Assembly (NCBI GenBank): GCA_017407995.1 | Contig: JAFQVM010000031.1 | Location: 20,093 to 84,092 of the forward strand | From: Clostridia bacterium | GTDB lineage: Bacteria; Bacillota; Clostridia; Oscillospirales; Acutalibacteraceae | DNA length: 64,000 nucleotides | Reading direction: 5' to 3' | In this document: positions 30,509-32,024 of the stretch, one piece after another | Layout: every line of letters starts with the position of its first letter | How positions within the stretch are numbered: position 1 is the stretch's first letter | The notes under the pieces: model-generated | What the model was told of the DNA's origin: nothing | Database searches by the model: none | What the model saw: the letters and a program-made list of their open reading frames with translations, nothing else | Program-made: the position numbers and the translations under genes

Positions 30509-31186
30509 TTAATTCTTATTGAGCTTCACAACATATGCAACTGCTTCGCACAGTACTGAAAAAGATACGAAGGCGCACATTGTTATAAGCGACCATTTCA
30601 GGTCAACTGCGCCAAACATATTTGTGTCAAATATAACCTCAACGCAGATAAGGAAAACTGCTATCTCAGCTGAGATGAGCGCAGGTAAATGGACACCCTT
30701 TGCGATACCTTTCGAAACCAGAACCGAAGTCACCGCAACCAGTGCACAGACTACCAGGCAAAGCGGTACAGCGTAGCTGTAATACCAATCGATTATTCCC
30801 ATCATCTTCGCTATATACAAAAGATACAGCGAGAGCGTCACAAAACATATAACAGCAGTGACTGTAGGCGGGGTTATACGCAGCACAGGAAGCACCAGGA
30901 ATACCCACGCAACAGCGATTGCTCCCAAAACATATCCTGCCCAAAATTTTTCACTTGAGCTCAAAAGGTTGGCAACCGTGCATATCATTGCAGGAAAAAC
31001 CATCAGAGCTGTAAATATTGCGGCATAGCTTTTTGCCGTTTTAGATGCTAATCCAAAACCATATTTCTTCTTTGCAGGCTCAGTATTAACTACAGTTGCT
31101 GCAGGAGCCTGTGCCTCATTTGCTCCGCATGACGGACAGAGACCTGTACTCTCATCAAGAACTGCTCCGCACTTTGTGCAATACAT
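30509..31186 (-). CDS. Zinc-ribbon membrane protein, unknown function
   Basis: A 225-residue protein. The N-terminus is a zinc ribbon, CTKC (residues 3-6) and CPSC (17-20), followed by a flexible Ala/Pro-rich stretch and six membrane segments between residues ~50 and 220. This architecture, a cytoplasmic zinc ribbon fused to a small polytopic domain, is common in Firmicutes, but the role is not known. AGGGGTG precedes the ATG. Monocistronic, with a promoter at 31231-31259 and the repeat element at 31271-31551 immediately upstream. Confidence 0.82.
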   Translation of the reverse strand: MYCTKCGAVLDESTGLCPSCGANEAQAPAATVVNTEPAKKKYGFGLASKTAKSYAAIFTALMVFPAMICTVANLLSSSEKFWAGYVLGAIAVAWVFLVLPVLRITPPTVTAVICFVTLSLYLLYIAKMMGIIDWYYSYAVPLCLVVCALVAVTSVLVSKGIAKGVHLPALISAEIAVFLICVEVIFDTNMFGAVDLKWSLITMCAFVSFSVLCEAVAYVVKLNKN

Positions 31187-31230
31187 AAAAACACCCCTTA
31201 TATATAAAGTTTGAAAATTTGCTTAGCTTT

Positions 31231-31259
31231 ATATTATCACATAAGGCAAAAAAAAACAA
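31231..31259 (-). promoter_or_regulatory. Possible promoter of the zinc-ribbon gene
   Basis: On the minus strand TTGTTT (31259-31254), 17-bp spacer, TAATAT (31236-31231). The inverted-repeat element begins 12 bp upstream of the -35 box. Confidence 0.5.
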
Positions 31260-31270
31260 TCCTTTAAATC

Positions 31271-31551
31271 TTAGGGTGACGGAAGTTGAACACAATACGG
31301 TTTTGGAAGCCGTATTTGCACCAACTCATCGTTAAAAATCCTCGGAATACGAAAGTATTCCTGCGGTTTTTGCCTCAATTTGGCACAAATCCGTCATTAC
31401 AAAACTGCGCAGCACCCAAAACACAAAAGTTTTTGTGCTGTCGGGTGTTTCTCCGGCGAGGGCATACTGACGTATGGCAAGCCGAAAAATGCACGACAGT
31501 GCGAGAAATCTTGCGTTTTGGGCGTATCGAGTTCGACTCCCGCCACCCTAA
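31271..31551. repeat. 281-bp MITE-like element with terminal inverted repeats
   Basis: The ends are imperfect inverted repeats: TTAGGGTGACGGAAG... at 31271 and, on the other strand from 31551, TTAGGGTGGCGGGAG..., matching at 24 of the first 29 positions. The inside contains several hairpins: 31295-31300/31310-31315, 31344-31350/31355-31361, 31422-31428/31431-31437 (nested in 31413-31417/31443-31447) and 31463-31467/31472-31476. No transposase frame. The right end contains a T-arm-like GAGTTCGACTC. No clear target-site duplication was seen. It lies between promoters of two divergent genes. It may be a non-autonomous mobile repeat or encode a structured RNA. Confidence 0.75.
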
Positions 31552-31583
31552 ACAAATTTTAAAGAAAGCGTGTACAACACATT

Positions 31584-32024
31584 ATGAAAATACTTATCGA
31601 TGCCGACGGCTGTCCTGTAGTTGACATAAGCATAGAGGTAGCTAAAGAGTATGACACAGAGTGTATCATACTCTGCGACACCGCACACTTTTTTGAGCGT
31701 AGCGGTGCGAGCACAATAACTGTATCAAAGGGTGCTGACAGCGTAGATTTTAAAATTGTAAATCTTCTGCAAAAGGGCGATATCGTCGTAACACAGGACT
31801 ACGGACTTGCAGCGATGTGTCTTGCTAAAGATGCTTTTGCCATAAACCAAAACGGATTGATTTTTGATACCCATAATATCGATTCATTACTCAACTCCCG
31901 ATACAACGCTAAAAAAGTACGAGCCGCCGGAGGCAGAATAAAAGGGCCGTCTAAAAGACGACCCGAACAGGACAAAGATTTTAGAGAATCACTATGCAAG
32001 CTATGTAAAAATCACAGCAGATGA
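31584..32024 (+). CDS. YaiI/YqxD-family (DUF188) protein
   Basis: A 146-residue protein of the YaiI/YqxD family, a PIN-like fold of unknown activity. Family motifs are the N-terminal ILIDADGCPVV, GADSVDFKIVNLLQKGDIVVTQDYGLA and the C-terminal RAAGGRIKGPSKR. The aspartates in these motifs could bind metal as in PIN nucleases. The ribosome binding site is weak (AAAGAAAG). Its 3' end overlaps the convergent asnA gene by 13 nt, with no terminator between them. The 281-bp element lies 32 nt upstream. Confidence 0.9.
   Translation: MKILIDADGCPVVDISIEVAKEYDTECIILCDTAHFFERSGASTITVSKGADSVDFKIVNLLQKGDIVVTQDYGLAAMCLAKDAFAINQNGLIFDTHNIDSLLNSRYNAKKVRAAGGRIKGPSKRRPEQDKDFRESLCKLCKNHSR

Follow-up and report, generated by a model that had tools for sequence, protein, structure and literature searches.

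A probable family of MITE-like foldback elements in Clostridia with a conserved two-armed fold and divergent ends

Introduction

For a bacterial MITE one expects that the sequence of its ends links it to a single insertion sequence and that these ends are its best conserved part. Among the closest described systems, RUP of Streptococcus pneumoniae is a MITE of 107 bp with TA as its target, for which the accessible text of two reports names IS630-Spn1 as the proposed mobiliser (PMC2229807, PMC3049150), while the Correia/NEMIS elements of Neisseria are described, in the accessible part of the first of these, as giving a base-paired transcript (PMC2229807). Here we describe an element of 281 bp at positions 31271–31551 (plus strand) of a 64-kb window, the whole stretch of DNA that was analysed, with homologous copies of ~280 bp elsewhere in relatives. 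We read it, with a probability of about 0.72, as one copy of a Clostridia family of non-autonomous, MITE-like foldback DNA transposons.

Results

A solitary foldback insertion between two genes

The window copy stands alone as an insertion that separates two divergently oriented genes: a minus-strand gene begins at 31186, 84 bp ahead of the element, and a plus-strand gene begins at 31584, 32 bp past its end, a distance already given in a first-pass annotation of this DNA. It has the terminal inverted repeats of a MITE, the left end matching the reverse complement of the right at 24 of the outer 29 bases; this count, also present in that annotation, was confirmed and proved unique among 2,612,561 combinations of start and span (spans 260–300, whole 64-kb window). 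The repeats make up the two sides of the closing stem described below (P1; 5′ side 31271–31291, 3′ side 31531–31551, both plus strand), each with a terminal TA (31272–31273 and 31549–31550), and GAGTTCGACTC and the end pair TAGGGTG/CACCCTA are present in the window copy. The interior had been described as rich in hairpins. The RNA fold of 31268–31556 has an energy of −114.3 kcal/mol, where shuffled sequences average −74.5 (z −8.2, with none of 200 shuffles equal), and two hairpin arms are conserved among relatives. An internal transposase gene is absent, as is usual for a MITE and as had been claimed: each of the six reading frames is open from end to end in at most two of 35 relatives, and no conserved reading frame was found in the family in any of the six frames of these 35 elements.

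One claim about the setting failed, namely a −35 box 12 bp downstream of the element, where a simple consensus scan of 31100–31700 found no sigma-70-like promoter. A known RNA, whether riboswitch, ribozyme or other, was rejected: Rfam gave no match at gathering score to the element or in 17 related loci, and the seven matches obtained around the element at E up to 10 all lie under their gathering scores. We likewise rejected a cis-regulator of the downstream gene, which is carried by ten genomes, the window genome included; in the nine others the element is absent from the 250 bp upstream, as read by eye.

Dispersed copies and recent movement

The window genome, a draft that is 86% complete, holds a single full copy, together with a lone perfect 20-base copy of the idealised end (G000:C30:80159–80178, L002), which is perhaps a deletion remnant of an element; the window copy differs from this idealised end by two mismatches at its left end and one at its right. 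In relatives the family is dispersed and multi-copy, as MITEs are. A search of the genome and its relatives, as the first-pass annotation had proposed, found matches in 21 of the 45 genomes of the genus, window genome included (E ≤ 0.001). Across the bacterial family, a copy from genome G009 used as query matched at least 19 of 250 genomes, again including that of the window, in at least 14 of 135 genera; these figures are lower bounds, with up to three candidates per genome scored.

The relative G033 carries eight copies that are identical across 280 bp and lie at different sites, each with a unique flank on at least one side, as well as a ninth copy that has diverged. Identical copies at different sites mean that the family moved recently: it is mobile in recent time, and the earlier proposal of a non-autonomous mobile repeat is supported by this relative. 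The first-pass annotation had held that a single copy with neither relatives nor covariation would argue against both a mobile repeat and a conserved RNA; the element is indeed the single full copy in its own genome, but relatives exist and so does covariation. In G009, 14 of 16 copy rows, and in G010, 8 of 10 (one contig being of unstated size), lie at a contig end or no farther than 60 bp from one, as is seen with repeats that assembly leaves unresolved. Phages, plasmids and viral contigs gave no match to the element with one query each, and no account of the family was found in the titles and abstract openings of the literature matches listed.

A conserved Y-shaped fold with compensatory changes

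A set of 45 full-length elements was reduced to 40 by dropping those identical but for the outer two bases, and 35 of them were aligned, leaving out L023 (near L043), L030 (near L078), L028 (internal deletion), L047 (cut by a contig end) and L208 (whose right end enters tRNA-like sequence). These 35 distinct elements have a common Y-shaped fold, in which a closing stem of 21 pairs carries two hairpin arms, D1 (31298–31408, plus strand; GGTTTT ... AAAACTGC) and D2 (31415–31523, plus strand; CACC-AAAA ... TTTT-GGC), and each arm is similar to the reverse complement of the other. The RNAalifold consensus contains 62 pairs, and in 57 of these both sides have changed at least once. Once the full closing stem is included, 71 of 76 pairs have changed on both sides, a value as high in none of 500 shuffles, and 85.2% of cells pair, as against 62.7% in shuffled and 34–48% in slid alignments; the closing stem was added by hand, the interior structure was derived from the very alignment tested, which favours it, and kinship inflates the shuffled comparisons but is retained in the slid controls. 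The pairing excess nevertheless appears to lie far above what an interior structure derived from the alignment should give.

In the closing stem P1, every one of the 21 pairs has changed on both sides and 69.1% of cells are paired; helices 2 and 3 of D1 are paired in 92.7% and 92.5% of cells, with 20 of their 23 pairs changed on both sides, and helices 4–8 of D2 in 84.9–100%. Length is near constant, and the motifs GGTTT, GTTAAAA, GCCTTG, AAACTGC and AGCACC are conserved across the 35 elements. The two-armed fold is well conserved across this MITE-like family, and the examination of fold and covariation suggested with the first-pass annotation showed compensatory change in these 71 pairs.

Compensatory changes of this kind could also stem from mutation and not from selection, in which case the family would be a neutral repeat. 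By template switching within imperfect palindromes, one arm would be overwritten with a copy of the other and the pairing kept, and covariation produced in this way would be strand-neutral; from genus to genus, however, the motifs, the internal loops and the overall length are retained, a point that in our judgement weighs against this explanation and leaves it quite unlikely.

Pairing is strand-neutral

On the strand that a functional RNA is made of, G-U pairs can be accommodated and A-C mismatches cannot. The alignment was folded on both strands and only the pairs common to both were counted, a procedure that replaces a first count on pairs predicted from the plus strand, which is biased to GT. 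In these shared pairs the element has GT 41 and AC 36, with consensus energies of −43.6 and −39.2 on the two strands, whereas a control of SRP RNAs from the same bacterial family (29 of 30 loci, the partial match L243 being left out) has GT 58 and AC 19, with energies of −70.5 and −37.1. The GT-over-AC tolerance expected of a strand-specific RNA is therefore not seen in the element; the near equality of GT and AC points to structure at the level of DNA rather than to one transcribed RNA, and this strand neutrality favours a MITE-like DNA foldback element over a strand-specific RNA. A second control, of tRNAs, comprised only 18 distinct sequences (GT 4, AC 2), too few for this comparison.

The strand counts bear on a rival reading, in which the family is an amplified structured non-coding RNA of ~280 nt, riboswitch-like or a small RNA, with selection acting on the plus-strand transcript. 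Strong covariation, near-constant length and conserved motifs across the 35 elements are what such an RNA would show, and 24 of the 35 sequences fold better on the plus than on the minus strand; D2 alone gives GT 49 and AC 24, counted on plus-strand-predicted pairs and hence biased to GT. We consider this RNA unlikely in view of the shared-pair symmetry, the lack of an Rfam match at gathering score and of a promoter-like site in 31100–31700, and the absence of a common arrangement relative to the downstream gene. Some function of a transcript may remain, because D2 leans to GT and the majority of sequences fold better on the plus strand. Of the structured RNA closed by its ends that had been offered as an alternative at the outset, the closing structure stands, supported by covariation, but the single transcribed RNA does not, given the strand symmetry.

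No tRNA found at the element

The right terminal inverted repeat contains the T-arm-like GTTCGACTC, which in the window copy is spaced from the 3′ end much as in a tRNA, and the ends of this copy make a 7-bp acceptor-like pair; such features had suggested birth from a tRNA, which would make the element a tRNA-derived, bacterial SINE-like retroelement. GTTCGACTC is indeed present as described, but the T-stem pairs in 51.5% of cells as against 49.2% in shuffles, and slid versions do equally well. Two covariation measures of the T-stem do beat most shuffles, with 3 and 32 of 500 reaching the same level, but they are not specific, because sliding by one column gives equal values. The motif GTTCRA is found in the right end of 10 and in the left end of 13 of the 35 elements, and neither ARAGORN nor Rfam, even at E up to 10, finds a tRNA at the element. 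With no tRNA detected and a T-stem that behaves like shuffles, we find the proposed tRNA birth scarcely credible.

Ends diverge more than the core

Among the 35 elements, identity averages 41% over the closing stem and 60% over the interior, so that the ends diverge more than the core, which counts against the MITE reading. Among the first 11 rows, the window copy shares 50–73% of the stem and 64–67% of the interior with seven elements, and 24–33% of the stem and 68–70% of the interior with L022, L211, L192 and L042. Ends and core have separate histories. It is possible, if doubtful, that the element represents a type of mobile DNA for which shape, and not end sequence, decides recognition; the ends could then be replaced wholesale as long as their pairing closes the same fold, and some cellular or recombinase activity would move the folded DNA. 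If so, the repeat R2 described below, alike in architecture but without sequence similarity that could be detected, would represent an independent second case.

The tip of D1 (31334–31371) is made up of an A-tract, the hairpin GGAATAC-GAAA-GTATTCC and a T-tract, and is terminator-like on both strands: counting both strands, two terminator-like structures were found, compared with a mean of 0.7 in shuffles, and A4...T4 surrounds the tip in 31 of the 35 elements. A 24-mer of the tip, in the form found in relatives, occurs exactly in 43 public contig stretches, several from the same genomes, with titles that include Oscillospiraceae, Ruminococcus, Eubacterium, Anaerotruncus and Clostridia; a 19-base tip sequence had no occurrence in the literature matches listed. 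At 15 of 18 examined tip loci the best inverted repeat spans 161–307 bp, and the closing sequences differ.

Several variants were observed alongside the full-length elements. Short forms of 163–169 bp (L108, L109, L121, L111, L090), which occur in Anaerotruncus and other Clostridia, have one arm and the same tip with other closing stems. A related subtype (L094, L096, L112, L127, L129) has the ends GGGCGTGCGG or GGGCGCGC and seems to be inserted between the two arms of an apparent transcription terminator hairpin. Another subtype, L028 of genome G022, has neighbours that by eye resemble the genes near the window element, which we take to be helix-turn-helix and nicotinate phosphoribosyltransferase-like genes at both loci.

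Terminal TA and the neighbouring repeat R2

The window copy and the eight identical G033 copies carry TA at either end; across the 35 aligned elements it is found at both ends in 9, at one end in 14 and at neither in 12. Because identical copies share their ends, this TA may belong to the element. At L053, a single TA left between the flanks puts a signal-peptide gene back in frame, as judged by eye, in agreement with TA duplication, and at L050 the interrupted reading frame fits no added bases, which argues against TA duplication; no true empty site was seen in the draft genomes compared. We rejected the idea that the elements generally insert into hairpin loops: flank complementarity does not exceed control in 32 elements of the window type (matched by 107 of 500 controls) or in the eight G033 copies (485 of 500). 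Only in the seven-copy related subtype is it above control (6 of 500), with two of these copies sharing flanks and the right end of L101 probably misplaced.

A second repeat in G033, R2 (L056, L054, L057), has the ends ACCGAGTGAT...ATCACTCGGT and adjoins six of the nine G033 copies with a single TA in between, being partial in two of the six. Five of the eight identical copies adjoin R2 on one side, and their other flanks differ; the junctions use either end of the element with either end of R2, and a TA also lies beyond the far end of R2 in the four copies, one of them shortened, in which this end is seen. R2 and the element are alike in TA and in a predicted fold with a closing stem and two arms; R2 is 270 bp in length and gives no match to the profile of the element family at E up to 10. 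At G033:C18:11797, a fragment of the left end of the element family is fused to R2-like sequence.

Candidate mobilising enzymes

The search for a partner covered the Y1, DDE_3, DDE_Tnp_1 and rve families in draft assemblies, which can lose insertion sequences. DDE_3 and DDE_Tnp_1 were each found in none of 11 genomes and were rejected. An rve transposase occurs in three of the 11, IS30-like in G004 and G009 and a third in G133; those of G004 and G009 were rejected as partners, with ends unlike those of the element. An autonomous copy in G033, sought through the end sequence with up to three mismatches, was also rejected, since all 18 matches fall within the eight copies (16) or in fragments (2). 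No insertion sequence sharing the element's ends was thus found with the four transposase families and the end pattern in these draft genomes, a result that is no proof of absence, because draft assemblies can lose insertion sequences and many further families exist.

The Y1 transposase, present in 26 of the 45 genomes of the genus, including the multi-copy G009, G014 and G021, bears on the reading of the element as a palindrome of the REPIN kind that a Y1 (RAYT/IS200-type) enzyme mobilises by acting on single-stranded hairpins. The foldback shape and the likeness of the arms as reverse complements agree with it, and compensatory changes are reported for REPIN hairpins in the accessible part of the source (PMC3116915). 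Y1 has no match, however, in the multi-copy genomes G033, G042, G007 and G010, nor in the window genome; it was rejected as the general mobiliser, and a REPIN-like origin appears very improbable.

Discussion

Taking the element as a MITE-like foldback transposon, an enzyme encoded elsewhere in the genome would recognise its paired ends, its folded DNA or both, the latter perhaps as a cruciform or a single-stranded hairpin, and insertion would take place at TA, doubling it. The A-tract, hairpin and T-tract of the D1 tip may halt transcription in both directions, so that insertions are tolerated.

Across many genera the ends drift or swap while their pairing and the inner fold persist, and fresh copies are found without a recognised partner among four transposase families, so that shape-reading by a transposase becomes testable. 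The alignment of 35 members, with its covariation-supported fold, is supplied. Strong covariation alone is no proof of a functional RNA, and here the strand-symmetry test separated the element from a true RNA.

Going by the accessible text of the two reports, RUP and the element are alike in being small, dispersed and non-coding, with paired terminal inverted repeats and TA ends (PMC2229807, PMC3049150); the ends of RUP resemble those of IS630-Spn1, whereas the element is 281 bp long and DDE_3 was found in none of 11 genomes. Correia/NEMIS, as portrayed in the accessible part of the same source, are likewise TA-ended MITEs with inverted repeats (PMC2229807). Compared with them by description, the element has ends that vary more than its core, and it spans at least 14 of 135 sampled genera. 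REPINs share with the element the form of foldback doublets with compensatory changes, according to the accessible part of their description (PMC3116915), but the REPIN/RAYT system requires a Y1 enzyme, and four multi-copy genomes carrying the element have no Y1 gene. The elements described here would form a new MITE-like family, close to RUP and Correia but larger and with exchangeable ends.
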